Of a stretch of DNA of 64,000 bases, positions 1 to 38,839 are shown in pieces. The translations under genes were made by a program, and so were the position numbers. How positions within the stretch are numbered: the stretch's first letter is position 1; every line of letters starts with the position of its first letter. The DNA is from Parelaphostrongylus tenuis. Its lineage: Eukaryota > Nematoda > Chromadorea > Rhabditida > Metastrongylidae. Below the pieces are notes generated by a model. The model was not told the DNA's origin, searched no databases, and saw nothing but the letters and a program-made list of their open reading frames with translations. Location: NCBI GenBank assembly GCA_019055375.1, contig JAHQIW010000451.1, forward strand, positions 248,001 through 312,000. The letters run 5' to 3'.

Positions 1-19
1 CCAATTTTGCCGCTATCCT

Positions 20-345
20 CTCTGAACTTTTAGATAGAAGTTCTCGAAGCTCTTGGCGTTGATCAATCCCTGAGGGATACGCCATGCATTCGCCTTTAAT
101 TTTAACTCATTTGAGGTGATTGATTGCATATCTGGCCTTTACAATGACTCGTGATGGCCTTCGCTGCACCGAATCAGTGCTGCTCATCCTCTTAGACAAG
201 ACTGAGACCAATCTGGTACCAATTTACTGACACCGGAGGGATGGATGGCTTAATGAGCAATGAGCGCGAAGTCGAACCATTGACCTTGTGTACGACGCAG
301 AGCACCTCTAACCACTGCCCCACATGCGCTAACCTTTAGTTACTT
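20..345 (-). mobile_element. tRNA-derived SINE (family S1), minus orientation
   Basis: Read on the minus strand it starts with a tRNA-like head (GTGGGGCAGTGGTTAGAGGT, then a GGTTCGA B box) and continues into the same body as the SINE at 10449-10751, ending at the shared text around CCCTCAGGGATTGAT. It is a diverged copy with no clear target-site duplication. It is not a tRNA gene, because the acceptor stem is not kept. Confidence 0.75.
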
Positions 346-1525
346 CAGATAAATATTTCAGACATTATGTTAGTGACTTCGTTTAATGAATGAAAATTCA
401 AATTCATCTAACTGAATCACCAATATGATGATGAACCATAAGCCTGGTAAATACTAATAGAGTGATGAATTTAAGTAAGGATGAATTGCGGTATTCACAT
501 TTACGCTACGACGATTTTTGTAAAAAACATTTTAGGAGGATATCATGGTAACTATGACCTTCACAGAAGTTTTTTCTAATTGTTTATATTATATTACAGA
601 ATTAATCTGTTACACGGTATATTTCGTGGCTCTGATACGTTATAACAAACATCTTCTGAGCAAATGGTAGGTTATAGAAGTTTCTCGGAAGAAGCTTCAC
701 TCTCTACTCAGTAATACACAAAGAACTTCTTTACAGCAACCAGAGAAGCGAACTCTTTATAGGTTGCAGAGCACCTTTACAGCAGCGATGCGTTTATGTG
801 GCGGAAAACAGTAGTACATGATGAATGGTAGCAACAGGAGGAGGGTAGCACAACAGCAGCGACAACGTTGACCTAGCGCGGTGGTGGTTGGGGTGCTGAA
901 TTAGCATTGAACTCTCCAAGTTTTTCATCTCTCCGACTGCCCGGAAAACTGGTACGAGGCCTGCACGGGAGCTGCATACACCCTGCGATCTAAGTGGGAA
1001 AGCTCTATTTTAATTATCCGACAACTTCGGAGAGAGCTGACTCGATCAGCATTCAGCAACATGCATATAGAAGAGCGCGATCATCGAACGGTAACTGAAT
1101 TTAAACTCGAGAAGTTAGATGACCTTAGTGAATGAAGGCCGCGAGGAAACGAATAGAAAACATGAAAAGCTGGTATTCACACGGTCTGTGTGAAAGAGAG
1201 CCGTGTAACTCAATGGCATCGCACTCCACATATACCCATACAGCAATGAAATTAAGTCCTTTTCATAATTATGTAATGCTTATACAATGCCTCAAGTTTT
1301 CAGACAGCGACATGAAATTTATAGCCATCTCAAGCGTCAGCGAAGCAAAACTAGGATCCGTAAACATTGAATTAATTTTGCAAAGCACTCTGATAGGAAC
1401 TATGAAGAAAGCAAAAATAGGATCTGATGATCATATTGTTTAATGTCGGTCGTTATCAATGACCATAACGCAGACCACCTTTTTTGACATTATATGCTTA
1501 AGTACAGATCTCTGCCTACAACTAT
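346..1525. other. Unassigned stretch
   Basis: No recognisable gene. A 103-codon open frame at 1132-1443 (+) lacks convincing splice sites or family motifs and is probably chance. AT-rich non-coding sequence. Confidence 0.5.
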
Positions 1526-1529
1526 GGCA

Positions 1530-1765
1530 GAATATCTGATAGTCATTTTTGAGCCATGCATTTGGTCTGCAATGGGCACCTATGCAGTGCAATACACGTG
1601 TTTTGGCCTTCCAGCCTCGTCAGTAGCACCCTGGCTTTTCGTTCCTCGAGGACGAGGCTGGAAGGCAGAAAACACATGTAGTGTATTGTCATCACATGCA
1701 ACAGACCACATGCATGGCTCATAAGTAACAATCAGGCATATCGAAATTTGAGCGCGGTTTCAAAG
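1530..1765. mobile_element. Degenerate family A foldback with hammerhead-like arms
   Basis: Two arms face each other. The left arm reads on the minus strand as CTGACGAG, a short stem, then CAAAACACGTG; the right arm reads on the plus strand as GAGGACGAGGCTGG and AGAAAACACATG. The outer parts match other family A copies (ATGAGCCATGCAT against ATGCATGGCTCAT, and AAATTTGAGCGCGG at the right end). The invariant GAAAC is changed in both arms, so the ribozymes are probably dead. Confidence 0.6.
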
Positions 1766-2483
1766 AAACACTTGAAGCGAGAGCTCAGACAATATACTTA
1801 TGAAAGTTCATTCATATTAACTACACGATAAGCCGCGATCAGTACCCAGCAACTCTTTCCAATCATTTGCTTTTTCGACAAACTTGTATTTTGAAAATCC
1901 AAGCGATTGGGTAAACGAGATTTCTTCCACGAAGACATGGTGATATTTTGAATGCACTGTCTGACTTTCGCCACCGAACCACTGTCGGAAGCTATGAAAC
2001 CTAAATTTCGCTTGTGCCTTTTTTGAAGTTCAACTATTAAAGGATCCTAAAATGAGAGCAGCAATTTTGCTGGAAATCGAATAACGTGTAGTAACTGAAA
2101 GGTGGCCAGTTTGACCCCACCGAGAGTTTGAAGACTCACCATCTTAAAGTGCTTAAGAAAAGGATATTCGAAATGGGACACCTTTGTTCCAAAATATTAG
2201 TAAAATGTCTTTGATAAATGAATGAAACGTCTTGACAGAGCTCTTCGACGATTTTAGTGAGAATCTATTTAACCAGCAAACAACGACATTCACAAACAGA
2301 ACTAATAATTTTTCGAGCTGAAGTCGCATCCACGCGAAAAATTGGAGACTATAGTGGACAACTAATGCAAGACAGTGAATAGAATAAAAGAATTACTTTT
2401 CGGCGCACATTACGATTGATCTTGAATAGTAAATGTAACACATATTTTAGAAAAAAGGCATTCAATTGAATTCTTCATTGGTT
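1766..2483. other. Unassigned stretch
   Basis: No gene, repeat or RNA recognised. Confidence 0.5.
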
Positions 2484-2655
2484 GACCGCTTTTAGCGGTG
2501 GTATGATGTTTCAGATATACCCAGCGGTGAAGAGTGATGTGCAAATTTTTTGCGTAAGGTGGAATTCGAACACATATCTCACTCTATCCGGGAGCGCGTG
2601 CTCTAACACTGATATCTGAAACATCATGTTACCGTAAAAGCGGTCAAACAAAAAT
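2484..2655 (-). mobile_element. Foldback element with tRNA-like core (family S2)
   Basis: The ends are an inverted repeat (GACCGCTTTTAGCGGTGGTA at the left against TTACCGTAAAAGCGGTC at the right), extending inward through ATGATGTTTCAGATAT. The core, read on the minus strand, has a tRNA-like A-box/B-box layout with the B box in TTCGAATTCC. The same ends recur at 33.9, 34.2, 34.4 and 62.2 kb. Confidence 0.6.
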
Positions 2656-2789
2656 GAATTCAATTTGACCATTCATTACCCAATATTCGTCAGCTTGTCT
2701 GCCTTCAATGCCGATACCGACTACTCGGGCTAGCCGTGACGGTTGGCGGTTGGCAGATAGATGCGATGTAGCATAGAAAAAATGGTGTA

Positions 2790-2905
2790 CAGAATAGGCG
2801 CCGGTAGTGCAACGGGTTAGAACACGCTTTCCCGGATAGAATAAGATGCGAGTTCGAGTTCAGTCTGACGCAAAAGTTTTGTACATCACTTCACATCACA
2901 GGGTA
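2790..2905 (+). mobile_element. tRNA-like SINE copy (family S2)
   Basis: Contains GGTAGTGCAACGGGTTAGAA (A-box-like), TTTCCCGGATAGAA (anticodon-loop-like) and GAGTTCGAGTTC (B box), followed by the family tail TTTTGTACATCACTTCACAT. It lacks a consistent acceptor stem, so it is a tRNA-derived repeat. Confidence 0.6.
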
Positions 2906-3269
2906 TATCCAAAGACATTTAAGTTTGTCCAGAAGGGGCACCGAGGAGGATCATGTAGACACAGCTATCAACCGTAAATCTCTGTTTATTCAAGTGGAAT
3001 GGAAGGCGACAGTTTGATCTCCATACCTGGCAAAGAAGATCTTGAATTAGTCAGTTGAATGACGTAGTCACGCCTCGTGGAACTAAACGAAGCCCAGCCT
3101 CTTACAGTACTTTCGATATATTAGCAGTTGTCGAATGATTTACTGGCCAAAATTTCTATCGTGCCACTGGTTAATTGCGAGAATGCATCATGGCGGAAAA
3201 TTAGAGAAAAGTCTTCAGCAGTGAATGGCATTCTTTTCGTATATACCTATGAGAACTGAGTGGCGAGCA

Positions 3270-3500
3270 AAAAAATACGGTCTCAGGCGGGAATCGAACC
3301 CGCGTTTCATCCATATCGGAGACGCGTGCTACTGCCACGCACCACCGAAAGCACATCTGCGCCGCCACTCATTCCTCAACAGTGGTGGCGAAAACGTGCC
3401 TCGGTGGTGTAGTGGTACTAACACGCGTCCCCGTATGGATGAAACGCGAGTTCGATTTCCGCCTGAGGCCAGTTTTCGCTCACCACTCAATTCTCTTAGG
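3270..3500. mobile_element. Head-to-head pair of tRNA-like sequences (S2)
   Basis: The minus copy (about 3275-3352) and plus copy (about 3400-3475) face each other. The plus copy can pair GCCTCGG at its 5' end with CTGAGGC at its 3' end, a seven-pair acceptor stem. It carries GTGGTGTAGTGGTA and GCGAGTTCGATTTCC. The minus copy has an intact B box (GGGTTCGATTCCC) and a seven-base loop CCGATAT, but position 33 is C rather than T. The pair arrangement and irregular anticodon arms favour a SINE-like element over functional tRNA genes. Confidence 0.6.
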
Positions 3501-3590
3501 TATATACGAAACATCTTACATCGTGAAATGCAGCAAGAATACTAGAAATTTCGGGCATTCTTTCGTTATTGATTAGGGTCTTTGTGAAAT

Positions 3591-3923
3591 TTGTTTACAT
3601 TTCATACATTGGAATGCATGCTCACCACCATCAGGAATAGAGGTGGAGTAGTGCTAATTGAACTGGGCCAAGAGAGTGTATCCGTTTGTATGCAGAAGGA
3701 CAATTCATGGAAGGGGACTCTTTCAATTACTTCTGAATTACAGCGTGATAAGCTGTCAAACGTTGTGCTGATTTTAATATCGCTTGGTGTAGATAATGTG
3801 CTCGAACTATTCAATGTAAGAATTATGGACCTTAGGAGCCTTGATAGTGCAGCACGATTCATACATCTTGGAAGGCTATTGGTTGAGTTTGCACTTAATT
3901 CGCTTTTGCAAAGATCCTTGTGA
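3591..3923 (+). other. Unassigned 110-codon open frame
   Basis: An uninterrupted plus-strand frame with a protein-like hydrophobic pattern (for example LSNVVLILISLGVDNVLELF). No family recognised, and no clear acceptor or donor frames it. Could be an exon, a decayed element or chance. Confidence 0.2.
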
Positions 3924-3929
3924 TACCAG

Positions 3930-4545
3930 AATATTTAAGCCTTAGTGGAAAAGTGAAATCTAATTAATTTAACATTAAAATCGATTACCAAGAGTCGTTG
4001 GCGGGTCGACCACTATGCGCGCCAGACCAAATGAATACTTACTACCAAAGGGTCAAGCGATCACGATGCTTACAATAGTATCCCTACCTTGGGAGCTTAA
4101 TTTTTACGACACAAAGGAAGAGAAGATGATTGTAATTCGAGGAATAAGAATGTTCAATTTTTCGAGTGTGGCCATGCAACGTTTCTAAATGTTTATATTC
4201 AACGGTGACAACATAAACATTTTGCTAAATGGTGTGCGGACACATATATTCATGCCAAAGCTTTGAGGAAGGTTCAAATCTACGAGCTCAGTTGAGCGAG
4301 ATTATACAAGGGCAAAAAAAAAAACAAGACCACATCCACAGGAAGCGAGCGCGATACTGCAAACAAGTGTATATGTTCAGCATATTTCCATAATGCTAAG
4401 AGATGGAAAAGAATTGGAGAGTGTGTTATGTCGTTCTATAACATTTGGCACTGGGGCAATAAACACCAAATTTAATAACCGGAGGGAGTTGAGGTCGCGA
4501 TCGCTCAATACTGTATTTTTTGCGAACATTTTGGCATACGATTTG
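3930..4545. other. Unassigned stretch
   Basis: No gene or element recognised. Confidence 0.5.
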
Positions 4546-4549
4546 CCTA

Positions 4550-4990
4550 TGGTTGTTTTAGGACGGAGTCGTTGTGGAAGAAATCCGCTTGCTCCTCATG
4601 CACTAATAACGTGCAGGAGGAAGTGCTAGTGAAGCAGCGCACAAGATTAATGAGGCTTGAAGTGATGATACGGTTGCAGAAGAGACGGCTATGAAGTTAA
4701 TCGCAAAGATCAAATCTGGATAGAACAGTCTGGAGGATCAATCGTGCTCCGGCTGTCCACAGGAAACTCTATTAATCTTGCGCACCGCTTCAGTAGTATC
4801 TACCCTTACGCGTCTTCCGTGTATGAGTAGCGAGCGAATTTCTCCCCACGAAAAATTATCTTATTGCAAATGTAGAGAGGTTGTATACCAAAATATTCAT
4901 AAAAAAATGCGCAATCGAACGATACCAAAATCACGCATTTCTAATCACTTCTGGTCAAAAAATTTGATGTCTATTTCTCTGGTATCATAA
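4550..4990 (+). pseudogene. Mariner transposase relic, internally deleted
   Basis: Broken frames match the order of a mariner transposase. The N-terminal helix-turn-helix part comes first (LLLMHY, then DDTVAEET, then SLEDQSCSGCPQET), followed directly by the middle part with RISPHEKLSYCK and REVVYQNIHKK. Stops and frameshifts interrupt it and the catalytic domain is missing. The same layout is seen at 19.5 and 43.5 kb. Confidence 0.65.
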
Positions 4991-5534
4991 GTTACAGGAC
5001 AAACTAATGATAACATACGAATAGGAATTCGTCGTTTCCTGCATATTTGGTATGGTTTTTATGCTTTATTACGTAATTTACTACAAAATCGTAATAACAA
5101 CTAAGGAATATATACAAAGTGTTACAGAGATTGATCCCGTTTTTTTTGGCAAAACGGGGACCTATGTATTGTTAAAAGTCAAGGATATTGATCGGAAAAG
5201 CAAGTAAAAAACGTGAGAACTTTTGGGAGGTACGTAGGAAGAGAAGCTAAAACACAAAAGAAAATGCAACGACGAAAAGAGGAGTCAGAATGGGCATTAA
5301 AATAGCCCGATAGCGTTCATGTGCTGACGTTGGTCGATCCATGCGTAGCAAACAATAAGGAACGTACCAGAGAATCAGTTTCATGGTTATTTTGTACAAA
5401 AATTTGAACTTCTAAATATGATATGATTTTGTTAGATATCAATTTTACGCGTCATTGTGTTCAACTGCTATTTGTTTGCCTTTTTTTCCTGTCCCCCGCT
5501 TTACAAAGCCGAATATTAACTAGGTGTCTGTGGA
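4991..5534. other. Unassigned stretch
   Basis: AT-rich; nothing recognised. Confidence 0.5.
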
Positions 5535-7480
5535 ATGAGTCTGACATTTGTCAAGCTGATCAATATTCTTATTTCTCCTACATGAATTCCTTTATTCTTT
5601 GAAGGTCATTTAACTTGTGATCCTATAAAAAGTGGATGATAAAAATATACACACTTCACGGAGAGTTTAGATCACGATTTCAGCTGCATCTGTCAGTGCT
5701 GTGGTCCATGAGTGTTGTCGCTAAGGGAAAACTATCTATAATTGTTGCCATAAACCAGTAAGATAACGAATGTGTTAACATTAACGTGCCGTATTATACC
5801 ATAGCACTCATAGAACGATAATCAATTCCCTTCAGAATCATTCTTCTGCCCCCTCAAGTCCTCTTTAATCTTTTTTTATCTTGTAAAGCAAGTAATGAAA
5901 CGACGATCTTGATAAGATAGTTCTCTTAGTTTCTCAGTGGTAACCGACTACTGAACAAGTACTGATTCCAATACGACGTCATAATTATGCGGTACGTTAA
6001 GTGATGATCTCTCAATCAAAAAGATTTCGGAGAAGATTTTGAATCTTCATAAAGATACGGAATACATTTTTTTCCAAAATCAAAATGGTAAACTCTAACA
6101 CTCGGAAATGAACCTTGAAAATGGCCCTAACGAAAAACGTGGAATATTTCCTCTTGACATTAGATGAAAAAAGAGTCATACTCAAACTGTTATACATGCC
6201 AAAGTCAGCATATTTATCGTCATCATCATATGACGAACTCAGGAAAATGTCAAGTCTTTCAAAAGTGCACTTGTGCAAATCTCTAAAATTCTACCTCAAA
6301 TATCCAAAAAATCTCGTCATGTGCCATACTTCGGAATATCGTAAAGAACTTTATTCATTTCAAAATTGAGTTTACAGAAAAAACAAACAGTAGATGCAAA
6401 TTAAGCATTACAGCTAGATCAGTTTGCATTCAAAGTTGTACGCTAATAAATAATACAACGAGACTTCCGGGGGCTGTGCTATGACTCAAAAAAGGAGAAA
6501 GAAACGGGAGCAAGATAACATGAAAGCTTGTCAGTTTAATATAGAGACGGTACCTGTTTTTCCCGCCATAGGAATAAAACTAGGGGAGATAGTAAATAGA
6601 TCGAATCTGGATTCGATCACCATATTCCGCTCTTTAGCGATCTTCAAGTTCAGTCACTGTTATCATGATCACATCAGACATGCTTTGAGTAGAATTTATT
6701 TGCTCTGAGAACAATGGCGTCAAGCGCATCTCAGTTCGTTCCAAACATTACTAAATGGAACTTGGAGAGATCTGGAATCTAGAGATGTATGCCTACCAGA
6801 AACAAGCCGCTTCATTTTTCAAACGTAAATTTCACTGTCACTTTTTTTTTACGTCAGACCTCTTATTTCGAACACGGAATCGTTTGAACAAACGGGATTT
6901 GTCCAGCTGAAAGCATTAACGCCTCTCTCAATGTTCTCTTGGATATTCCAAATGAGTGACTCTTCTAATTTAGAAAACGACTTTCATTCGTCCCGGCATT
7001 TTCAACCAATATCAATTTCCGGAATAGTTAAACTAACACGAAACTAATATGTAGACACTGTCTGGCAAACCTTTCGACGTTTTCGTTATCTTCAGAGTCG
7101 ATTCGATTCAACTGTCCATTGTCCTTCGTCCACGTTGGGACTTCGTCTTCACTGTCGTTTGATTCGAACCTTCTTCGGCTCTTCTCCGCTTCGATGATAA
7201 TCCTCACTGACGAGACCCTCTTCCAGAGGATGGTTGCCATGCTAACTTTCGGCTAATAAACTTAATTTTGCTAACATTTCTAAACGCTTTCCTTCCAAAT
7301 GTGTTTGATTTCCAGATGACATTGTGCAAAACTGCGTGTCTTATCAATGACAAAAAAAATCAGTACTGTTCTATTATGGCGGCGCCACATGAGGACTTCT
7401 ATAAAAATGTATTTTTTGCTTTCGCAAAAGTTTCTGTAGTTTGTAGATAACTCAAAACAAATGAATTTCAATGGCATGTT
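5535..7480 (+). repeat. Left arm of a ~4.4-kb foldback
   Basis: The sequence recurs in reverse complement at 8680-9942. Matching blocks include ATGAGTCTGACATTTGTCAA at 5535 against the reverse complement near 9942, GCTGAAATCGTGATCT at 5700/9820, GATCAGTTTGCATTC at 6418/9670, and CTATTATGGC near the inner end. The left arm holds about 590 bases (about 5705-6290) with no partner in the right arm, either an insertion or a right-arm deletion. The arms are clearly diverged, so the structure is old. Confidence 0.75.
7060..7215 (-). repeat. Dispersed ~150-bp repeat (family C)
   Basis: Read on the minus strand it has CTCTGAAGATAACGAAAACG near one end and stretches such as AGTGAAGACGAAGTC. Related copies lie near 35.9, 53.0, 54.1 and 57.1 kb. 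The conserved end CTGAAGA...CGAAACG matches the CUGANGA and GAAAC boxes of a hammerhead ribozyme; this copy reads GAAAACG there. Confidence 0.5.
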
Positions 7481-7955
7481 TGATTTTTCAAATAATAAGA
7501 TTTTGATCCTCATTCGACGATTTCTCATTGAACAAAAGCTTTATTATAACTTATTTTTGATTTTTAGTTAGAGAAAATCTTTCCAATTATAACGATGTAT
7601 TCGGCTTTCGTAAGGGACTTCTTCGAGCTTTGTAACGACCGAAAGAATATTGGGTTTTACATTCAGTGATCACTTCTAGTCGGCTAAGGTGTGTGTACTG
7701 CTGTAATACCAAAGAGGAAACACATTTCCTTAATCAGAAAGACTTGTTCTATCTAATGGTAAAAATTTTGTTATAAAAAGATTTTATCAGGCGAGAAACC
7801 TTTAAATGTGAAACAAAATCTCATTCTGACTGATACAGCGTTACAGCCGAAACATCGACTGATGGTGATGGACCAGTGTCATAGTACACTATGCCATCAC
7901 CACTTACCACATACGCCTCCCTCCTTGCTATAATGCAGGGCTTAATGTGGGGCGG

Positions 7956-8003
7956 GGGTCACTGACGAGGAGGACGAGCCTCCGAAACACCGGTGTATGG
8001 CCC
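7956..8003 (+). ncRNA. Type I hammerhead ribozyme, unit 1
   Basis: Stem I GGGTCA (7956-7961) pairs with TGGCCC (7998-8003). The core CTGACGA (7962-7968) is followed by stem II GGAGG/CCTCC closing loop ACGAG, then GAAAC (7984-7988). Helix III is the palindrome ACACCGGTGT, and predicted cleavage is after GTA (A7997). All invariant core bases are present. Because helix III has no free loop, a two-molecule (dimer) fold is likely. Confidence 0.88.
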
Positions 8004-8230
8004 TGGCGTACCAACCTCGTTTTAGGCTAAAACCATTCTTCTTTTTTTTTTATTTGATTTTGAATGTTTATAACGAGTTTTTAAAAACAGTCGATTCAAT
8101 GGATTAGTTTTGGTCTACCAGCCGAAACATCGACTGATGGTGATGGACCAGTGTCATAGTACACTATGCCATCACCACTTACCACATACGCCTCCCTCCT
8201 TGCTATAATGCAGGGCTTAATGTGGGGCGG

Positions 8231-8278
8231 GGGTCACTGACGAGGAGGACGAGCCTCCGAAACACCGGTGTATGGCCC
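8231..8278 (+). ncRNA. Type I hammerhead ribozyme, unit 2
   Basis: Exact repeat of the motif at 7956-8003, displaced by 275 bases, with intact core, stems I and II and palindromic helix III. Confidence 0.88.
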
Positions 8279-8505
8279 TGGCGTACCAACCTCGTTTTAG
8301 GCTAAAACCATTCTTCTTTTTTTTGGATTTGATTTTGAATGTTTATAACGAGGTTTTAAAAACAGTCGATTCAATGGATTAGTTTTGGTCTACCAGCCGA
8401 AACATCGACTGATGGTGATGGACCAGTGTCATAGTACACTATGCCATCACCACTTACCACATACGCCTCCCTCCTTGCTATAATGCAGGGCTTAATGTGG
8501 GGCGG

Positions 8506-8553
8506 GGGTCACTGACGAGGAGGACGAGCCTCCGAAACACCGGTGTATGGCCC
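8506..8553 (+). ncRNA. Type I hammerhead ribozyme, unit 3
   Basis: Exact repeat of the motif at 7956-8003, displaced by 550 bases. Cleavage at two successive units would release a 275-nt monomer. Confidence 0.88.
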
Positions 8554-8679
8554 TGGCGTACCAACCTCGTTTTAGGCTAAAACCATTCTTCTTTTTTTTT
8601 GGATTTGATTTTGAATGTTTATAACGAGGTTTTAAAAACAGTCGATTCAATGGATTAATATGAAAAATAAAATGTACCT

Positions 8680-9942
8680 TTAGCATTCACTTGATTTGAG
8701 CTATCGATAAATTACAGAAACGTTTTTTTTATCAAAAGTAAAACACGTTCTCATCGAAAACCTCAAGTGACGCAGCCATAATAGAACATTAGCAAAAAAT
8801 CTGTAAAATTGTGAAGCATTCATCTGAAGTGTTAATAGCAATTAGGGAACCACTGTTAGAACATTCCTACGAAATCAAGTTTTCTTAAAGCAGAGAACTT
8901 CAGTTTATTCAATATCTTCAATATTACGTCATATGATGAGACATTCAGCGTGAATCCATACTTGAAAAATGCTCCGCCAATTTGACTTCAATAAACATTG
9001 CTGTAGGTGACCGAATACCTTATACAAAGATTCACGCGATGGTTCACCGATTGTTCAGTAGTACTGCCATCTTTCACCGATCATTGAGGGGCATTAATAC
9101 TTGCAGCTGAACAAATCCAGCTTGTTCAAACGCTTTCGTGCTCGAAATAAGAGCTCTGACGTAAAAAAAGTGGCAGTGAATTACACGTTTTTAAAATAAA
9201 GCAGCTTGTTTCCTGTAGGCATGCATCTGTAGATTTCAGATCTCTCCAAATTCCAATTAGTAATGTTTAAAACGAGCTGAGATGTGCTTGACACCATTGT
9301 TTTCACATCAAATAAAATCTACTCAATGCTTTTCTGATGTGATATATTTTCAAATGTATCTTCGAATTTTATTTCAAAATATCTTGATTGCATAGTTAAA
9401 TAGAAATCTAAGAGCGATTCATGGTAACAGTGATTAACGTGCAAATCACTAAAGAGCGGGATATGGTGATCGAATTCAGATTCGATCAGTTCACTATCTC
9501 ATCTACTTTTATTCTTATGGCGGGAAAAATAGATGTCGCCTCTGTATTGAGCTGATAAGCTCCTATGTTATCTTGTTCCCGTTTTTTCTCCTTTTTTGAA
9601 TCATAGGCCAACCTATCGAAAGTCTTATTGTATTATTCAATAACGTACAACTTAGAATGCAAACTGATCTGGCTGTAATGTTTGCTTTTTAATTGCTGCT
9701 TGCTTTTTTCTTTAAACTCAATTCTAAAATGATTAGAGCTCTCTACGATTCCAGAAGTATGGAACGTGAGGAGATTTTTTTGGATATTTGGGGTGGATTA
9801 GAGCACTTGACAGATGTAGCTGAAATCGTGATCTATACTCTCCATAAAGTGCGTATATTTTTGCCATCCACTTTTTTTTTATAGGATCACAAGTTAAAAG
9901 ATCTTTGGAGAATTTGATCAGTTTGACAGATGTCGGACTCAT
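8680..9942 (-). repeat. Right arm of the ~4.4-kb foldback
   Basis: Reverse-complement partner of 5535-7480, lacking the 590-base block. On its minus strand the inner end has CTATTATGGCTGCGTCACTT, and the left arm has the matching CTATTATGGCGGCGCC. Both open with an ATG-like start, which could be a remnant of an element-encoded protein, but the frames soon close. Confidence 0.75.
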
Positions 9943-10019
9943 GATACATATACATTTACATACGTTTATAGTGATACATTTACAAATATCGTAATTCTAG
10001 TTAATCCATGTTGAAATAC

Positions 10020-10433
10020 AATTACTGCGACAAGTGCGACCTCTCCAAGACTGCTTCATACCATCTTTGGCTGTATGATACTGTGCTTTTGATGAGATGA
10101 TAGCAGCCATTAAAAGATTCACTTTCATAGAATGCGCCGCCTATTTTGTTAATGAGAAAGCTTGCTCCATTGTAGCCAGTGATCCAACGGATCTGTTCTT
10201 CTCTATACTCTTGAAGGGTCATGTAAAGCTGCACCCTAGTGGGCCAAGCATATTCATAATCTCAAAATCCCCCAAGGTTTCTTACTAATTAACATGTTTA
10301 ACATTTCTCAAATACAATCACCACATTCTGCGTTGTTCAGTTTCGTAAAAAAGCAGGGAGACCACATACAATCTATGTGGAGGCAAGAATCTGTATGTCT
10401 CAGTTGAGAGGATAAGCACAGATTTGAGAGACA
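10020..10433. repeat. First block of the duplicated segment, copy 1
   Basis: Aligns in the same orientation with 48811-49260: ATTACTGCGACAA against ATTACTGCAACAA, TGTAAAGCTGCACCCTAGTG against TGTGAAACAGCACTCTAGTG, and CACATTCTGCG against CACATTTTGCG. On the minus strand both copies hold a related frame, here DYEYAWPTRVQLYMTLQEY and there DVEYIWSTRVLFHMTIQDL. This may be an exon of a gene in the duplicated unit; the family is not recognised. Confidence 0.55.
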
Positions 10434-10448
10434 TTATGCGTATCACTC
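10434..10448 (+). repeat. Target-site duplication, left copy
   Basis: TTATGCGTATCACTC is repeated exactly at 10752-10766, on the other side of the SINE. Confidence 0.85.
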
Positions 10449-10751
10449 GAGCGCATGTGGCGCAGTGGTTAGAGGTGCCCTGCGTCGCACACGAGGTCAA
10501 CGGTTCGATCTCGCGCTCATGGCCCACCAAGCCATCCATCTCTCCGGGGTCGGCAAATTGGTACCAGACGGGTCTCAGACTTGTCTGGGAGGATAAGCAG
10601 CACTGACTCGGTTCAGCGGGAGGCCACCGCGAGTCATTGTAAAGGCCAGATGTGCATTCAATCACCTCAAACGAAGTTAGAAATTGAAGTCGAATGCATG
10701 GCGCATCCCTCAGGGATTGATTAACGCCGAGAGCTTTATCCTTTTTATCCT
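10449..10751 (+). mobile_element. Full-length tRNA-derived SINE (family S1)
   Basis: About 300 bases. The tRNA-like head has GTGGCGCAGTGGTTAGAGGT (A box) and GGTTCGATC (B box), so an internal RNA polymerase III promoter. The body is shared with copies at 20-345, 26365, 27590 and 38590, and the tail has short repeats of TTTATCC type. It is flanked by a 15-base target-site duplication. It splits a segment that is uninterrupted in the paralogous copy at 49.25 kb, which confirms the insertion. Confidence 0.9.
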
Positions 10752-10766
10752 TTATGCGTATCACTC
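10752..10766 (+). repeat. Target-site duplication, right copy
   Basis: Exact second copy of TTATGCGTATCACTC. Confidence 0.85.
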
Positions 10767-12789
10767 ACATAATCAATAATGAACTCCAGTTTAATCCTCG
10801 AATTTACTCTACTCCGAATACAGTGGTAGCTGTTTTTTGGAATATCGCATAAACAGTCAGAGAGTATGCTTATTTAAGGAGAAAAACCTTGAAGAGATCT
10901 GGTTTCCATTCTTCAACGTTCGATCACACATGTCCGTAGGCTACCTCACAGAGCGGTATCGAACGCCATATAACAAGAATGAATTGATGTGCCTAAACAT
11001 GCCACGGACAGATACAAGCGTGCGCAATGGAGAATTTTTTTCTCTTGGGCGGGGCACGAGGTGTTAAATGCAAACATTATTCACACAATTAAACAGCTAA
11101 CGTTTCGGCAGGTCGCTCCGCCTTTCTTCTACCTGATGACGTGTATGGGTCTCATGAAGGTTTGGAAAATCTATAGAGACGACGTGAAAAGATTTTTGTT
11201 CACAAATTTCAGGTGGAAATTTATCTCAAATACAAGACCATATCACTCAATCGCCGACACTCAGGCTTATTCTAGGTATCATTTTACCACGTCGTAGACG
11301 TTCTGTTAAATCTCACAGAAAAGTATTCCTCTGGAGTAGTGCTTAGGCTCGAAGCAAAACTAAACGAGTAAGCACGGAGTGCAGTCGATCTAAGCAGTAC
11401 CTCCGTTTACATTGTTTTAATACTGCTCATCGGAGATGTGTTCTTAGGCTTTGTATCGTTCAACAAGTTGTACAATTTGGGTCGAAAAATCATGTGTATA
11501 ATACTGTAGAAATAATGAAGTGAGAACTGTTTATTTTAGGGCTTGATGTTCATTGCCTTGACATGCATTAGTTGTTGAGTATAACGAGTAACACTATATG
11601 CAACGAGGATTAATGTTGACCGGTACTGAAATTTAGGATAAACTGATAATGATCGATGCTTGTTCTATAGATAATTGTTGCTAAATAAACATTTTAAACA
11701 AAGATTAACAATATCATCGAAAGATTTCAAAAAATTTGGGTCAGAAATATTCAAGTTCTCCCAAGAAGTGCCTTACAAATTGAAGATTGTAGGCTCTGTG
11801 AAGGCTTATTACTACTACGTACTAATAGTTGACTTTTGAAATGTTCTTGAAGAACTCATACACTGATGATAATGTGTTACTGAATTCGACCTTTGCATAT
11901 TTTTTTATGGTCACAAGTTGTCTCCAGCATACAAATTTCGCTCTACAAATACCAACACACCCACTGTAAAGTTCAAGCGAGGGACTGTTCATTCAGAGCG
12001 AAAATGTGATCTTAATTCTCTTGGTACAGCGCACTAAAATATCAGTAAAAAAAGACAATTTAGTTTTTAGAACCTACACTTTTTGAACTATCTAACGATT
12101 ATTGAAAAATCTATTGGAAATTCAGGCATAAGCAAAAGCGAGGAACGTAAGGCACTCCAAAGGCAAAACGTAATTTTTGTCGCCGTTTTCACAGCGATCT
12201 CTATATCTGGTTAATGTAGTGTAGTGTAATCTCTATATCTTACACTTGCCATTCAATTTAGACACTAAGTTCATAATTAGAATCATCGTTTTTCAAACTA
12301 TCGATTAATTACTATGATTCGCTGATAAACCTTTGTTCGATGAAAAGACCATACAAACACGAATGCAAATCACACTGTGCACACCGAGGAAAAAAAACGC
12401 AATTTTCTCTCAGTTTCTACAACTCACCAGAAAAGCGATTTCGAAAATTAAGCATGCCATCGAAACCGCAATTTTCTCAACTACCAAAAAACTGCTTGAA
12501 GTCTAGTGAAAAATCTGTGCTCGATGAGAAAATAACGAAAGTGCGCGTGTAGCATGAGTGTAACACGTGGTCCTGAAAGGGTTGATTCATGATGGAGTGG
12601 TCTATTGATTGAAGCATTAAAGGAGATTGAGAAAACTCTATAAATGACGAATATCACATTAACTGAATAATCAGCTTTGTATGAAAGCCTTTTTGCTTTT
12701 CCTTTAGATTCAATGAGTGCACATTTTTGTTGCATTGTGACTGATTAAATGCAAATATAGAGTTTATTGCCACTTAAGGACTTTAATGC
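10767..12789. other. Mostly unassigned stretch
   Basis: The first ~65 bases continue the homology to 49255-49315. No gene recognised in the rest. One small hammerhead-like motif is listed separately at 11092-11145. Confidence 0.45.
11092..11145 (-). ncRNA. Small hammerhead-like motif, degenerate
   Basis: The minus strand reads AGAAGAAAGGCGGAGC, then CTGCC, then GAAACGTTAGC. The end matches the GAAACGTTAGCC motif behind the Penelope-like fragment at 51.9 kb. The CUGANGA box is not intact (GGTAGAAGA). Confidence 0.35.
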
Positions 12790-13444
12790 CTTCATAGCCC
12801 CCGCAGCAAATCCATATAATTAATATTTTAAAAGCAATGGAAATAGAATAGTTTTTTCACAAACTCTTCAGATCTTTCACTGGATACTTCACGTAGCATT
12901 CAACCGTGCAGAGTTCACATCAATCACCAATAAATCACTTACCGCAAAATAAACTGAGATCTGGCGTGAGATCACAAGTGATAGCAATGCACTCCTACCT
13001 GTGGCTCATCTTTGTATTGGAGGATAATATCCAAATGCTCCGGCAGTCTCACAAGCTGATGTTTCACATTCCTGTGCTGCATTATATCAGAATCTAATTC
13101 ATCACTAATCGGAGATAATGTTGCTGAGCTTTGGAACAAGTAGATTTCAAATAATCTTAACTTCTTTGAGTTTTGTCGTGGAGCTGTTGTTCATTTGAAT
13201 AGAAGGATCAATTAAAAGTTCACAATAATAAGACCTTGTGATGAGCCGAAAGGTTCATCGTTGTAGTGCTGCAGTGAAATTTTTTACCTGCACACTTCTT
13301 TCTTGAAAACATAATCTACCGTTCATGAACGCGACTAAGTTGAACACTAAAGGAAGAAGGTTTGAACGGCTGTGATCCACCAACACTTCTGATTTTTGTG
13401 ATCCCGATCAGCTGCTCCTCGCTTAGTGGCACTTAAGCATGGCG

Positions 13445-13513
13445 GATGGCTACCGCCAATATCGTTATGATCGCTCTTCTCGCTTTATTATTAACCGTTT
13501 CAAGATCGTTTTA
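13445..13513 (+). CDS. Signal-peptide exon of a small secreted-protein family, copy 1
   Basis: Frame starting MATANIVMIALLALLL, a short polar start followed by a hydrophobic run, as in a secretory signal peptide. The paralogue at 55606-55674 reads MATTSIVMLALLAS in the same frame and length (22 codons to a stop), with several synonymous differences (GCT/GCC, CTT/CTC). That supports coding. A splice donor probably precedes the stop but I cannot place it; GATCGT and ACCGTT are weak candidates. The 140-codon frame starting six bases upstream is a shadow. The mature protein is unknown; a later piece may be at 14734-14961. Confidence 0.5.
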
Positions 13514-13624
13514 AATCTTCTGTGTCTCGACACTCTATTGATCCGGAATCACAGTGTTCTCCTCATTGTATGCATCCCAGTACTTCTAGCATTCAATTGT
13601 TCAATTGTCTTCTTCTTGTATGAC

Positions 13625-13795
13625 TTCTGGTTGAGCGAGTGTCCAAATCTCGAGGATAGCCTGGCTGTGGCGTTTCATAAGGCGTTATTGTTGACTGCCG
13701 GAGAAAGTTGGGGGAGGAGGGTGAAGCTCGGCTTCGCGCCGCTGCGAAGAGCATCGCAAGCGCTCGGCCATGGTGCCCCAATCTGCTGTGTTAAT
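13625..13795 (+). repeat. Dispersed repeat shared with 20.2 and 28.2 kb
   Basis: Shares TTCATAAGGCGTT...GACTGCCGGA...GTTGGGGGAGG with 20195-20340 (CATAAGGCGTTCGTATTTGA) and with the minus strand of 28140-28270 (GACTGCCGGAAAGTGTTGG-like text). Nature unknown. Confidence 0.5.
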
Positions 13796-14733
13796 TTTTC
13801 AAATCATAAGGTAAAAAATAGAAATCCCGATGTTGATCAATCTTTAGAGGCACCGCTGTGATCAACATCGATTAGAGCTGATGCAACTAGAATTCTCTTA
13901 TAATGACATACGATAATCTATCAGTTAGTCAGATGAGCTTATTTTGATCTTGTCAGACTTGCATTACACTAATTTGCTGGCCATGGGGCGATATAAACTT
14001 GGTGTGTACGAGAAAGTGATCAAAACACCTGCCAAGATTGCATGGAACAAGTCCTTCACCATTGCACTATCCAGCACAGAAAAACAACCTGTTGTTACAA
14101 AAATGAGGTTTGTAATGCGTCAGTGAACTACAATAAAGGACCACATGCAATGAATACCTCTCATGACGGTGCAAAAGAATTGAATTCCTGCTGGTAACTT
14201 GTAATTCATTGAGCAGGTTACTTTGCATCCATGAAATTTCTAGAGAAAATTCTTTGGATTGAATAGTGACTAAAAATTTGAAAGCTTATTTCTGGAATGA
14301 CAGATATTGATGAAGGCTCTACTAGCGCATGGATAGAAAACCATCTTTCTTGAGGATAGTATTCAGACAAACTAGAAAAAGACTGGAAGAGTGCTACAAA
14401 AAACTGTTTTGATAAAAGAGTTATCAACTGACTTTTGCATCATTGTGAGTGGTCGGTTAATTTTTTTTTCCTATCTCTGTTTTCGATTTCGGCCTAACGC
14501 AATCTCCGAATCAACTAGTAGGAAGCCCGGCCGAGGATTTGCCCCAAAATCCATTTCTCGGAAGTGAGTCATGAAGACCTGCAAAAGCCTCCGCAAAGTT
14601 ACGTCAGGAAACCGAGGAATATTATGTGCACGACAAGCAATGTACCATTTGAAATGTTTTGCAATGTCTGAGGGCAATTCGTCATTTGAGATCAAGATGA
14701 TCATTTTGTGCAATTGCCACTCCCTACAGATGG

Positions 14734-14961
14734 TTGACAGGAGATTTTGCACAACTGCTGCTTCAATTTTCAAAAACCCACTTTATGAAGTTTGTCCTTT
14801 GGCTTAGAAAAAGAGTGTTAGTGGACGTGAGCAAGCAAGCTCTACATATCAAACGTCAAGTATTCGAATCCAGAATACTTGGACTATTAGAAGCCAATAA
14901 GATCGTTATGCTATATACCAAGGGCGAATTACCAGAAATCGGCTGTGACGACCTGTTGTGA
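14734..14961 (+). CDS. Probable exon of the duplicated secreted-protein gene, copy 1
   Basis: Open from after a possible acceptor (CTACAG, ending near 14729) to TGA at 14961. It aligns over about 75 codons with 56451-56681, with at most a one-codon length difference. Shared residues include KQ..H..RQ..E.R.L..LE.N.I...Y.K.E.....GC, ending in LPEIGC here and VLDNGC there. About a third of residues are identical. No family recognised. Kept reading frame in an otherwise indel-rich alignment argues for coding; orientation agrees with the upstream signal peptide. Confidence 0.4.
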   Translation: MTGDFAQLLLQFSKTHFMKFVLWLRKRVLVDVSKQALHIKRQVFESRILGLLEANKIVMLYTKGELPEIGCDDLL

Positions 14962-14965
14962 CTGC

Positions 14966-17730
14966 TTAATGTCTTAGGCTGATACGTAAGCAAGTGTGAA
15001 TTCCAAAAGTTAAGGAAGACTCATCCTTTAATGTCGCAATTGTTTATTGTGACGAACAGCTGCGCCTCGTATCGCCTTGTTGAAATAACGTTAGTTAAAA
15101 AACATAAAAATGTTGAAAGATTCGATAATTTCATACTCGACTTTTTTGAGACCTTGCTCAATACAGTACGATTTGACTATGTATTTTTGAGCCTTCTTTG
15201 AGGAAACATGAAGATATTATAGAATCTATCAGCTTTGAGCAATCGACCATTAAACATTACAATGCCCGCTGATCTTGTCACCGGACATATAGTAGTGCTA
15301 TGTTATCTCTGCAGTGTGTGAAGTGGAATTTTCATTTTACACGCGGCAATGTAACATGTACGTCGTCCATTCCTTTACATGTGCACGTTCCCTCCCACGA
15401 AAGATTAGCTCACACGTAAGCACCGTGCAGCTCACGAGTTTGGAAAGCCAGTACGTGTGTTGCACTGTATAAGTGCTCATAAAAGGCATCACAAAAATCT
15501 CAAAATTGCATAGTCAGAATCGACAACATTTTTTGGAGACCTCTCACACCAAATAAACGTAAAGCATAATTTGTTTGATGCGAGTATGACGATTTTGACA
15601 TTAACAGCACATCCCAGCTCGTGCTGAGCCCTAATAATTGAAATACAAATAGTTAAAATTTACGGATGTTTGCCTAGAGGAGACAAATCTCAGCAACGGT
15701 AAAGAATGGTTGAAGGCACTTTTGATTTTCTGAGCGCTATTGCGTTACATTTGTTCAATTTTTGAATGGCACTCTACAAAAATTGCCGTTAGGCAAAACA
15801 TTCTACACAACTGTGAAACATCCAGACCAATTTATACGGATTGAAAAAGTTCCGCTACCAAATTCGATAGTTGCTGAACAAGGATATCCGATTTATTGGA
15901 AATCTTTACTACTACGATAGAGAATTAAGCTCTTGGCGTTTTTTGAGGAGAATGTCATAAGTTCGACTTTAGCAAGAATCCGCAGAGGTCACTCTAAAGT
16001 GATTTGTGGTGGCTCATCTATGTGTGCAGGAAGTGCTGCTATCAACGCAAACATGCCGGTTACTACCATGACGACCTCGGTTGAATGAAAGGCTTATTAT
16101 GCTTTAGCGGGATCGAACTAACGACCACGTGTGTGTAGGACTACGACCTACGCTCAGAATGACACCTAGCGTGCATGGTAATCAGAAAGAGCACCCTCAT
16201 ACGGTCTAGCTAGAATTGTTGGCTTAGATAGCAAAGAGAGAGCACCACTCTCTTCTTCGCAAAAAATTTTGAACAGATCGATGGCAGTATTACTCAACCT
16301 CTTGCTTAATTTTAGGCGAACACTCCGTATATCTAGCCGTTAGCAAAAAATAAAGTTCATCGTCGGTCATGCACATGAGCACACAGTTAGAGATGCAAAA
16401 TAAGAGAGTTAATGGACTCAGAGACATGCAGTTATTGACCTGCGAAAGTCTTCGCTATTTTTCCAAGCTAGTAATGATATACCGGCTCCTTCAATACATC
16501 TGTGTGAGGAAAAGGTTTCAGTTATGGGATATCGAGAGCTGAGGACATGAATCCGTCACCTTTGCCTTTCAATTGAGCTGGGTACTTGATCCATCAAGTA
16601 ATAACTCAAAAAATCGGCTTTCTGTAGATTGTGGCATCAATAATTAACATGTGTAAATCCCATGAACTAAGTCTTTTGAGCTGACACAAGGCTGATATTA
16701 GCTGCTGATATGATTTATATTTGATGCTTCAACGATTTTCAGTCCTATAAAACCTGGACGTACTTTAGCTAACCTTAGACACGTCAATATTTCGTTCACA
16801 ATAAACAGAATTATATAAAACGTTCTTTATTTTAAGCAAAATTTGCGCTAGATTGGTATTTTTCTCTCAAAGTTAGTGACTAATGCTTCGGCGATTTCGC
16901 TCCCTCAAAGCCATCCCTCTACATTTAAATGAAAGGTCACCTTTTTCCCGTTCTTCTCATACACTTTGTCTATGTTTTTTCATGCGGACACAAAGTGGTC
17001 TACTCATTCCCTCTATGTATTTGTGACCAAAACTTTTACAAGAGATCATATCTCATATATAAACTCGCACAGTCTCCTTTTCTGCCATTAGGACATATCA
17101 CGCAATTTCTTGCTTTACAAAGACAGCTGTTCAGGCGGTTCCGAATCAGTTGGCAAGTAACGTGTTAGATAGAATTTCTAAAAATCCTGCAGTATCTCAG
17201 ACCATGTTTTCAAGACATTTTCAATAGCGGCGTTCATTCGTTCGATATAAAGGGTAGTTTTTCGAAGCCATCTTCTTATTTGAGCCTGACATATTGATGT
17301 TTTCGTTATGGGACTCATTCCTCCTTTCCACTCTACTACCAGTGACTGTTCCCACGTAACCATTTGAGGTGGCTATTTTTTGTGCCAAGCGTAGTGATCC
17401 TTTTCTCTCTTCTCTCCTGCACAGACACCTGTCGCAGTTCTGTACATGTTTTGGGTTAGTGTTCCTTTGTGAGTAAGAGATGAGCAGACGTGATGAACTA
17501 GTACGCTGTTCTTATATTGCCTCCTATAACAGTTCGTAATGTAGTCACTTCCAGAAACCTCTGTATGAGTTAGAGAATGGAGGGCAATTATCGGTCTTTC
17601 TCGTACGAACTTTGTATACTGTGACTGTCCATTTACAGGCTCAATAAGCAGATGCCAAAGCATTGAGCTATGATCGATATTAGAGAAATGTCTACTACTG
17701 AGTACTAGTTAATATATTTTCAACAAAACA
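14966..17730. other. Mostly unassigned stretch
   Basis: No gene recognised in about 2.8 kb. It contains a tRNA-like sequence near 16095 (listed). Open frames at 16929-17168 (+) and 17178-17663 (-) lack recognisable motifs. Confidence 0.45.
16095..16190 (-). mobile_element. tRNA-like repeat
   Basis: On the minus strand a tRNA-like arrangement ends with the B box GTTCGATCCC, preceded by TAGTCCTACACACA in the anticodon region. Probably a decayed tRNA-derived element. Confidence 0.4.
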
Positions 17731-26300: not shown

Positions 26301-29300
26301 CTTATCAGTAACCCCATTTTATCAAATTATTGAGATCTATATTCTACATATTTCTTATCCTAATCCTTCAATGGCAAATAGCGCAGTGATTAGAGGTGGT
26401 CTGCAATATGCACGTGACCATCAGTTCAATTTTGCGCTTCAGAATCATCAAGCCTTCCGCCTTCATAAGAAAGATACGTCTTGTCTTGGAAAACAAAAAC
26501 TTGAGTGCATCCATCGGTAGGTCACGGCAAGCCTTTATGTAGAGCCAGACACGCATCACGATAGTTGGTTAGGTCAAACGCACAACTCATTCCGCAAGAA
26601 TTATCGAACTTCCAATGTTTTATGCTTACCTATCTTTCGATTGCCTTTCAACATAACCCTTTAGTGTACCACGTGGCCACTTCGATGCACGTCCCCGCTG
26701 CGTTGTGTTTCGAGACTTAATTTAGTGGCACGTTCTCTAATCAAAATTTGATGCTTGTTAGGTGAACTCGGGTTACGAGGTAATATATCATTACCAAACG
26801 ATGAAATATCATTTAACAAACTTCTACAGGGTTTTTTTTTTGGTAAGGACAGCACCAATGTGTCCTAAAAATCATGACGCTTTGACGAGAAAAAAAGCTC
26901 ATGAGAGTTAACGTAATTACACTGACCTATTCCTTCTAAACTTTACTTTTAAGACACTTTATTGATCTATCTTCATAGTGTTTTTTTCACTGTGCGGATC
27001 CCACTTTCTCAACACTGACTCCGCGTTTCGTCTTCATGAACGCCCACAAAGTACTGAGTGATAGAGTCCCCTTGCAAACTCGAGGTTATATTTATTTGAG
27101 AGCTTGAAAAGTGTAGAAGCTGATACCAGGTTTTGCTTTTGGAGACGATTCCATACTACGCTGAAATACTAGAAAATAATTTCCTTGCTTTTGGACTAGA
27201 TAGCTTGTTCTCTTAACTTCAGCGAGAATTTATTGGCACGCATCAGTAAAACCAACACTCTAGGAATAAATATATTGAGCGTAAAAGAGATCATATATAG
27301 GAAATACGTAGTTTTTGCATAAATCATCTTCACATACCTAAAAAACCTGATAAGCACCACCATTACAAAAGCACCCATTTAGATTGTGACTCAGGAAGAC
27401 ATTCTCTAAATGTGCGACATCTAGTAAGATGTTTTGTAAAGGTAATTTCGATGTGCAGTCGTAAATGCCTCAACAGAGCACGCAATCATGACTGGAGTGT
27501 TGCCTCAAAAAAGTCACATGTTTGTGCCGTTTATTTTGCTAACATTTTACTGAGACTATAAATGTTATGCTGAAAATAAAACATAAGAGAAAAAGCTCTT
27601 GGCATTGTTCATTTCCTGAGAGATGCGCCATGAATTCGTCTTCACTTTAGACTTCGTTTGAGGTGACTGAATGTATATCTGACCTTTACAATGACCCACA
27701 ATGGCCTACCGCTCTTTCAAGTTATAACTACTTATCCTCTCTAACAAGCTGATATCAGTTTGCCAACCCCGGAGAGGTGGATGGCTTGGTGAGCCATAAG
27801 TCCGAAATCGAACCAACGATCTTATGTGCGATGTGGAGCGCCTTTATCTGCGCCACACGGATTTTCGAGATATGGTCATAGCAGACATCAAATGGATAAT
27901 GAGTAACCAGTATCTATGATACGATAGAATGAACTTTGTTCTATAATTTTATATAAGTAATAGCGCATAAAGTGCACTAATAATTGAAAAAGAATATCCA
28001 GACTGTTGGTGAAAAGGCATCTCAAATAGTGCGCCGCATCATTCTTGACAAACTCTTCATTCTTCAACAAATCATAATTGCTGTGATGACTGTTGACTAT
28101 AGCGTAGAATAAGAGTATATCGAACCCATAAGATCCTTATTGTATTTTTTATTGACGAAGTGCAAACGGTTAATGTAGTCCTCCAACACTTTCCGGCAGC
28201 CAACGAACGCTCTATGGAACGCCGCAAGCACGCTACCCTTAAGACTGCAAGGAGACTCGCCGAACCAGTATTCTACGATTTTAAAAAGAAGATGAAAAAA
28301 CGAACTGAATGCTAAAAGCACTGGGGTTCGCACAACGAAGAAAGAAACACTGTGAAGACGAATCAGTGAAGTGTTAAAATGTGTGTCATTGCGATGTTGC
28401 AGGAAAGTGAATTGATGTTGACATAAGAAGTTCTTCGTAGGTTATTCCAGTACAGCCTTCCATAATTTAGGAAAAGGCAAAACGTTGCAAAATGGAGTGA
28501 AAAAGTCTCATAACTGCTATCTGAGCCAACTTGTCATGTGGTCTATTGGGCTCTTGTGCGGCCTGGTACACGTGTTTCAACCTTACGGTTTCGTCAGTCG
28601 GGCAGAGCCCTTCGTCTTTTAGCCAATCCTCTGTAGGTGCTCCACTCCCCACGCTAAGAGTTAGAGACAACAAGCTATCTACAGTACACTGTTGTCAAGT
28701 GAAAATCATTAGAACAGCAGCAATATCAGCCAAGAGCAATCGAGTGATAAAACTGTTGTTCTAGTGATTTTCACTTGACAGCAGAGCGCTGTAAATCGTT
28801 TGTCGTCGCTAACTCCTAGTGTGGGTGCTGGAGCACCCACAAAGGAATGGCTAAAAGATGAAGGTTCTGCCCAACTGATGAGACTGTAAGAATGAAACAC
28901 GTGTATAGAGCTGCACAAGAACCCATTTGAGAGACCACATGACAAGCTGGCCCACGTAGCAATTACGAGGCATGTTGAAATTTGAGCGTGGTCTTAAGGA
29001 AAAAGCACTCGAAAAGAACAGTAGAAAGGGGAGCATAGAAATTTTTCCATACAGTGATAGGGAAAGATCATCACGGCAACAGGAGTATGTGAGACGAGGG
29101 ATGTTAAGCATTATGTAAAGATTAGCACACTGAATTTTATCCTTAAAAACTCACAAATCTTGTGAATATGACCGTGGAAGTGAAGCAAACCCAGCAGACA
29201 CGAGCTATCTCCTTGAATTTTTTTGTATAGTCCGCTATGACTCCGCAAATCAAAGCTCCTACTACTCCAGCTACAGCTGCCAAAGACATCGGATAGCTGG

Positions 29301-34349: not shown

Positions 34350-34383
<34 letters not shown>

Positions 34384-36292: not shown

Positions 36293-36439
36293 TTAACTAT
36301 TTCTCACTTTTTTTGAGCGCTTTCATCAACTCTCAGGTAGTCCAGTCTTATAAAATGTGCTACATGCAGAACCTGTAGCCTAGTATTGCCATCAGTATTG
36401 GTTAGTATTACATTAGTATTATTAGTACGTCTTAGGATC

Positions 36440-36662
36440 GGATTTCGGCCTTTACGTCATCCGTGAGCGGTTGGTTGACTTTTTTTCCTATCTTCTGATT
36501 TCGGCCCAACATCATCTCCCAATCAGCAAGTAGGAAGCATAAGTAAGCAAGTACGTCAGTACATTTGTATTGCTTTGCTTTCACAAAGGGAGTGAGAACC
36601 CCGAAACCTACGCATGCTAATGGCGTAGCAAACCTCAAAAAACGGCTAAATTTAGTCTCTGT

Positions 36663-36706
<44 letters not shown>

Positions 36707-36870: not shown

Positions 36871-36991
36871 AATATACCTTATACTTCGAGTGTTTTCTTT
36901 GAGACCTCGCTCAAATTTCAATATATCTCATAATTCTTTTCATCATTATTTGAGCCAACATGTCATATGGTCTGGTAAAGGCTCTTGTACA

Positions 36992-37348: not shown

Positions 37349-37439
37349 TACAAGAGCCCTTACCAGACCATATGACATGTTGGCTCAAATAGTGATGAAA
37401 GGATATATTGAAAATTTGAGCGTGGTCACTCGAGATAAA

Positions 37440-37790: not shown

Positions 37791-37799
37791 AAAATGCCA

Positions 37800-38835: not shown

Positions 38836-38839
38836 TTGA

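Follow-up and report, generated by a model that had tools for sequence, protein, structure and literature searches.

A hammerhead-bearing tandem array in the nematode Parelaphostrongylus tenuis is probably a retrozyme copy, likely mobilised by Penelope-like elements

Introduction

Why would three nearly identical 275-bp units, each bearing a hammerhead ribozyme motif, stand in tandem inside a foldback element of a nematode genome? The question is raised by one locus in a 64-kb stretch of Parelaphostrongylus tenuis DNA; this whole stretch is called the window throughout. The original prediction, made from the letters of the DNA, regarded the locus as a retrozyme-like array, the transcripts of which would self-cleave into RNAs of unit length, held that it had amplified recently and proposed a search of the full genome for the unit. 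Here we describe what the array consists of, how its relatives are inserted across the genome and which enzyme may have placed them there.

Results

The array and its hammerheads

The array, and a second hammerhead-bearing element of the window that is separate from it, have the following parts:

7844-8657, plus strand: tandem array (TRF: period 275, 3.0 copies, 99% matches)
7844-8118, plus strand: putative retrozyme unit 1, 275 bp
8119-8393, plus strand: putative retrozyme unit 2, 275 bp, 3 substitutions relative to unit 1
8394-8657, plus strand: putative retrozyme unit 3, which stops at unit position 263 (u263), in P1, the preferred 3' end zone of genomic copies
7955-8004, plus strand: type I hammerhead 1, predicted cleavage after A7997 (u154), helix III palindrome at 7987-7996
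8230-8279, plus strand: type I hammerhead 2, predicted cleavage after A8272
8505-8554, plus strand: type I hammerhead 3, predicted cleavage after A8547
8042-8051, plus strand: poly-T tract of unit 1; it falls within u181-u230, where other copies have their second preferred end (P2)
8317 (T8, unit 2) and 8592 (T9, unit 3), plus strand: poly-T tracts of the later units
36938-37400, no strand assigned: inverted element of 463 bp; both of its arms have a minimal hammerhead, at 36992-37034 (minus, cleavage site 36998) and 37304-37346 (plus, cleavage site 37340)

Three near-identical tandem units, as originally described, are indeed what TRF returns; between units 1 and 2 there are differences at only 3 of the 275 positions. 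The claim that the period is exactly 275 holds for the step from the first copy to the second and fails past the poly-T tract of the third, where unit 3 has one T more than unit 2 (offset +1); unit 3 also ends about 12 nt early. The G+C content of the unit is 45%, that is, below 50%.

Nothing in the array appears to encode a protein. No open frame longer than 64 aa overlaps it, and a six-frame Pfam profile search of 1-14999 found no family above cut-off, so none in or beside the array; neither the open-frame list nor this search shows a frame or match combining reverse transcriptase (RT) and GIY-YIG there. Two translated frames of the unit had no match in the protein collection, and no relatives of the array were matched in phages, viral contigs or prokaryote genomes, where seven loose pattern matches in viral contigs contained no hammerhead by structural scan. 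Besides the units themselves, no direct terminal repeats were seen in the array. A Pol III promoter within the unit was considered and rejected: there are A-box-like matches, but the B box is absent, and each unit has runs of T8-T10, which would stop Pol III.

Scanning the two strands for the structure (core CUGANGA/GAA/UH, stems of at least 4/3/3 pairs) detected five type I hammerheads in the window: besides the three of the array there is one inverted minimal pair. The array hammerheads have stems of 7/5/5 pairs, whereas in 120,000 random windows of equal dinucleotide make-up stems of 6/5/5 or longer turned up in 4 motifs and stems of 6/4/4 or longer in 37; the strength of the array motifs is thus far beyond chance. 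Of the anatomy first proposed, the complete core, the five-pair stem II and helix III stand, and the helix III palindrome is ACACCGGTGT as stated; stem I, given as six pairs, has one more, a G-U pair, making 7, and is followed by a G-G mismatch. Loop II reads ACGAG. The Rfam model Hammerhead_1 (RF00163) did not report the array at E<=1, nor the first unit at E<=10, and it does report the minimal inverted pair at 37 kb. We suppose that the miss is owed to the loopless five-pair helix III and to the A at the cleavage site.

A dispersed family of recent copies

The proposed search of the genome (481.5 Mb, 5,105 contigs) for the unit revealed a dispersed family. At least 169 unit matches came from 40 scored candidates out of 1,632 in a first look, and the exact 42-nt ribozyme occurs 154 times genome-wide (reversed control, 0), counts that may be somewhat high since near-identical places in contigs C3322 and C3323 suggest that the assembly may hold both haplotypes at some sites.

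For closer analysis we used 40 loci, namely the window copy and the 39 further best-match loci listed, a sample that is not random and that, consisting of best matches to the window's unit, is biased towards young and intact copies. Units diverge by 1.4% within a locus on the same strand, 1.8% across strands and 2.2% between loci; 31 variants occur in every copy of a locus that covers the site, including 20 seen on both strands, and 151 are private to one copy. Recent amplification, as claimed at the outset, is borne out by the roughly 2.2% distance between loci, for these best matches to the window's unit.

The ribozyme sequence equals that of the window in 60 of the 129 covering copies, in 34 loci, while 34 of the 129, all from locus C951, have one change in the GAA core; outside C951 the identical share is 60 of 95. 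When C951 is set aside, the mismatch rate is 0.9% in the ribozyme against 1.9% elsewhere (1.6% excluding the poly-T), a value that ranks 51st lowest among 275 windows, which points to moderate constraint on the ribozyme. C951 itself (L020/L021, 1931-11380) is the longest array, made mostly of 274-bp units in mirror image, with flanks that are mirror images too. That all 34 of its ribozymes are core-changed in the longest array means either that arrays can grow without the ribozyme or that this one is an assembly product; C951 is a real duplication or an assembly hairpin.

Insertion anatomy

A run of units on the minus strand is followed by a run on the plus strand in 28 of the 40 loci, the opposite order is found in none, and 12 hold one strand only. 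The same order recurs in 12 of 12 adjacent opposite pairs among the exact ribozymes listed, 6 of these 12 loci overlapping with the 28. In L043, a one-strand locus by count, a short opposite piece is visible by eye.

Minus-then-plus order implies that both outer ends of a two-strand locus are RNA 3' ends. Such ends concentrate in two zones, the limits of which were set after inspecting the ends: P1 (u244-269) holds 33 of 68 where 6.4 are expected, with 17 at u262-264, and P2 (u181-230) holds 31 of 68 where 12.4 are expected. One end in P1 is combined with one in P2 in 25 of the 28 two-strand loci. None of the 68 lies at the cleavage end (u150-158), the nearest being at u144 and u161. The 5' ends are spread along the unit (KS P 0.08). 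Direct repeats of at least 10 bp, with a median of 12 bp, were found at the ends of 28 loci (null, 0.5% of 774 mismatched flank pairs), and no flanking repeat of 10 bp in the other 12. Runs exceed one unit in all 40 loci (48 of 68 runs), which calls for a template that is circular or multimeric. As judged from these scars, insertion looks like a process target-primed from both target ends on circular or multimeric RNA.

The window copy and its foldback

5524-9953, no strand assigned: inverted-repeat (foldback) element around the array
5524-5563 with 9914-9953, 5594-5708 with 9794-9913, 6281-6936 with 9079-9803, and 7364-7493 with 8658-8791: foldback arm pieces, 72-83% alike where aligned

The copy in the window has units on one strand only, with its 3' end at u263 in P1, no inverted half and no target-site duplication (TSD), its best direct repeat being 4 bp. 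The contrast between near-identical units and a diverged foldback, noticed at the outset, is real, in that the arms reach the 72-83% likeness given above while the units are nearly free of differences.

Of the 39 other loci, one has pieces of the foldback flanks (L045:1-240), and its retrozyme lies over 1.3 kb from them. There (L045:90-105), 11 bases separate the last match to the left flank, at about 7841, from the first letters of the right flank, ATATGAAAAATAAAAT, which match exactly, and the array is absent; the 11 bases are absent from the window at the insertion point (7837-7843 and 8658). This array-free comparison, which consists of one related foldback copy about 71-76% alike, indicates that the array entered a pre-existing foldback beside the inner end of its right arm. 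The foldback thus appears to be an older element in which the array landed, and the insertion seems to have lost about 9-11 bp of target rather than duplicating it. The foldback as a cause of amplification was rejected, its flanks recurring in that one other locus without the array at the matching place.

Penelope-like elements of the same genome

A search for the GIY-YIG domain, which by itself is not specific to Penelope-like elements (PLEs), matched in 150 of 150 scored candidates (1,723 in a first look), with open frames of up to 902 aa. RVT_1 and GIY-YIG lie in one frame in both elements tested (L068 and L069), one of which has a 320-bp direct terminal repeat (99.7%) while the other is preceded by an inverted partial copy.

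Neighbouring PLE copies on opposite strands within 5 kb form 20 pairs, all of them minus then plus (match list read by eye). Nineteen pairs entered the analysis of ends, the twentieth, L069, serving as the reference. Of the 19, 17 have one end at reference position 386-390 and 17 have the other at 339-355, with 16 showing both; flanking direct repeats of 12 bp or more are present in 12 of the 19 (null, 0 of 356). The two ends are 31-47 nt apart in 16 PLE loci and 37-77 nt apart in 25 retrozyme loci. To judge by their scars, PLEs and the retrozyme thus share the minus-then-plus order, a preferred pair of ends and a duplication of about 12 bp, and differ in part in spacing. It is this likeness that makes PLEs the likely mobiliser of the retrozyme, in a comparison that covers the PLEs of the genome.

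A 3' motif common to PLE and retrozyme, ACAGTCG, near both ends was not significant (P 0.03-0.08; in an earlier test 268 of 500 shuffles reached the score), an in-register hammerhead alignment of the two 3' regions was likewise not significant, and the structural scan found no hammerhead in PLE loci L060-L069. By eye only, an irregular hammerhead-like stretch can be seen in the PLE tail. Separately, the PLE locus L106/L107 (C4986) has both ends at one position and mirror-image flanks like those of C951.

Predicted folding of the RNA

Compared with 200 dinucleotide shuffles, the minimum free energy of the circular monomer, -81.2 kcal/mol, has z -3.7, and that of the minus strand has z -2.3, so the retrozyme RNA is predicted to be highly self-paired, as metazoan retrozymes are. 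For a single ribozyme, folding favours a non-hammerhead structure, pairing CACUG with CGGUG, by 2.5 kcal/mol, and for two copies the minimum is a double hammerhead (-50.7 kcal/mol against twice -17.7). In monomers the hammerhead helix III has a probability of about 0.01 and the competing pairing one of 0.48-0.77, while in a longer two-unit transcript helix III between the units exceeds 0.92. When the two-unit stretch is shorter, pairing in stems I and II of the first unit falls to about 0.44-0.59; with three units in the transcript, the three possible unit pairings take about one third each. All of these dimer and monomer folds are predictions, since the nearest-neighbour model has no tertiary contacts. 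What they suggest is a dimer switch, whereby tandem RNA would cut and the monomer circle would stay closed.

Other features of the window

The inverted element at 36938-37400 has its hammerheads in minus-then-plus order, like retrozyme loci. With 28507-28969 and 37440-37756 it forms one inverted-element family, two members of which are 463 bp long. Both arms of every member have a minimal type I hammerhead, the minus-strand one first, intact in 36938-37400 and decayed in the other two. These elements are possibly PLE-derived; no convincing TSD was found at the window's three palindromes of this kind. Elsewhere in the genome, L056-L059 represent another hammerhead family detected by Rfam, two of the four loci lying inside an inverted repeat of about 452 bp.

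The Pfam gene search covered 20 open frames and six frames of 1-14999, 27001-41999 and 45001-59999. Above cut-off it found an exon with a von Willebrand factor A domain (VWA) at 57538-57711 on the minus strand, overlapped by a VWA_2 match below cut-off; the other matches in the searched regions were three weak ones below cut-off (SAP30, DUF7340 and mariner HTH). A palindrome at 3235-3511 contains two tRNA-like sequences in opposite orientation. A dispersed repeat lies at 47-330, 10450-10736, 27585-27814 and 38594-38746, and the copy at about 10.5 kb resembles two proteins annotated as hypothetical in Parelaphostrongylus tenuis (Strongyloidea), with 80-83% identity over 41-43% of the query. This match lends indirect support to the nematode host named in the original prediction.

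Discussion

The dispersed copies, their target-site duplications, the runs of more than one unit, the low G+C content and the absence of coding sequence agree with the retrozyme-like nature first proposed. We consider it quite probable that the array represents a genomic copy of a nematode retrozyme, non-autonomous and of the non-LTR kind, mobilised by PLEs, with self-cleavage, circles and the RNA itself deduced from the DNA. Read-through transcripts would cut themselves, chiefly where two units join by a 10-bp helix III into a double hammerhead, and the 275-nt monomer, whose ribozyme is predicted to mispair, would be ligated into a circle. The two 3' ends left by a staggered cut in the target would then prime reverse transcription on the circle, one in P1 (mostly at u262-264) and the other in P2 (u181-230), and each would copy its way round, often more than once, until the two met at a variable junction. 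The enzyme would most likely come from the PLEs of the genome, some of which have long open frames and leave much the same scar. A broader proposition is that animal retrozymes are inserted by a PLE reverse transcriptase, two-ended priming at two zones of the circle with a stagger of about 12 bp giving back-to-back arrays, and that a loopless helix III makes cutting dimer-dependent and protects the monomer circle from re-cleavage; taken as a whole, it could in our view equally well prove right or wrong.

The same retrozyme could conceivably have been mobilised by a LINE, for example of the RTE or CR1 type, with twin priming producing inverted 5' parts. Inversion by twin priming is a LINE product known for L1; two-strand copies are more frequent here (28 of 40) than is known for L1. 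The PLE copies of this genome, moreover, share with the retrozyme the order of strands, a fixed outer end with a second end 31-47 nt away, and 12-bp TSDs, and thus, even though PMC4918200 interprets Nematostella hammerhead repeats with 15-bp TSDs as LINE-like, we regard a LINE as distinctly unlikely to be the mobiliser. Another reading concerns the template, which might be no circle but a multimeric transcript that genomic arrays yield and that stays uncleaved, making the ribozyme dispensable for insertion. Multimers would also give rise to runs of more than one unit, and the C951 array with its changed ribozyme core fits them; intact ribozymes nevertheless prevail (60 of 95 outside C951 identical to the window's, besides the 154 exact copies), and the RNA of animal retrozymes is reported to be largely circular (PMC7229834). 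We therefore think an uncleaved template unlikely.

Finally, gene conversion or unequal crossing over inside a foldback transposon could have amplified ordinary satellite DNA, the array being the outcome and its hammerhead a relic. Tandem units in a foldback whose right arm begins where the array ends are what such a process might leave, as is the long C951 array. The copies, however, lie at many sites with TSDs and preferred ends, the foldback flanks accompany just one of the 39 other loci and there without the array, and the foldback arms are far more diverged than the units, all of which makes a satellite origin highly improbable.

How does a PLE-mobilised retrozyme of this kind compare with known systems? 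As described by Cervera and de la Pena in 2020 (PMC7229834), metazoan non-LTR retrozymes share with it the type I hammerhead, non-coding tandem units within 170-400 nt, low G+C content, TSDs longer than 4 bp (here at least 10 bp in 28 of 40 loci, and not in the window's own copy) and PLEs in the same genome. What sets the present family apart is the minus-then-plus arrays with two preferred end zones, its nematode host (neither the word 'inverted' nor 'nematod' occurs in the main text of that paper) and the loopless, five-pair palindromic helix III, predicted to need dimers, as well as the failure of Rfam Hammerhead_1 to find the ribozyme in the window. A need for dimers is reported for amphibian repeats and not for most invertebrate ones, according to PMC7761336, which also reports minimal hammerheads in PLE terminal repeats. 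With the amphibian (newt and axolotl) hammerhead satellites the family shares a weak helix III; theirs is dimer-dependent in published assays, as PMC7229834 relates, whereas here the dimer need is predicted, the unit is 275 rather than about 330-350 bp, and helix III is loopless with five pairs. PLEs encode RT and GIY-YIG, while no coding is detectable in the retrozyme, whose hammerhead is fuller. Plant LTR retrozymes are likewise hammerhead-processed non-coding retroelements and, according to PMC4918200, are larger, with type III hammerheads in their LTRs and 4-bp TSDs; a retrozyme of the plant LTR type was rejected, the array hammerheads being of type I and the median TSD 12 bp.

Taken together, we argue that the array belongs to a known kind, the metazoan retrozyme, and that its apparently new features are the insertion scar, the resemblance of this scar to that of PLEs and the predicted dimer switch. 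No description of nematode retrozymes was found among the papers and passages listed in a literature search. Given that Rfam Hammerhead_1 misses the array, annotation pipelines relying on that model may overlook such families. What silences the ribozyme in circles is left open in the available text of PMC7229834, and a predicted fold in which only tandem RNA forms the ribozyme bears on this silence. Likewise, the 2020 review PMC7761336 describes metazoan retrozyme repeats as being without a conserved motif that would reveal their autonomous partner, and a single genome in which retrozymes and PLEs leave a largely common scar bears on who that partner may be.
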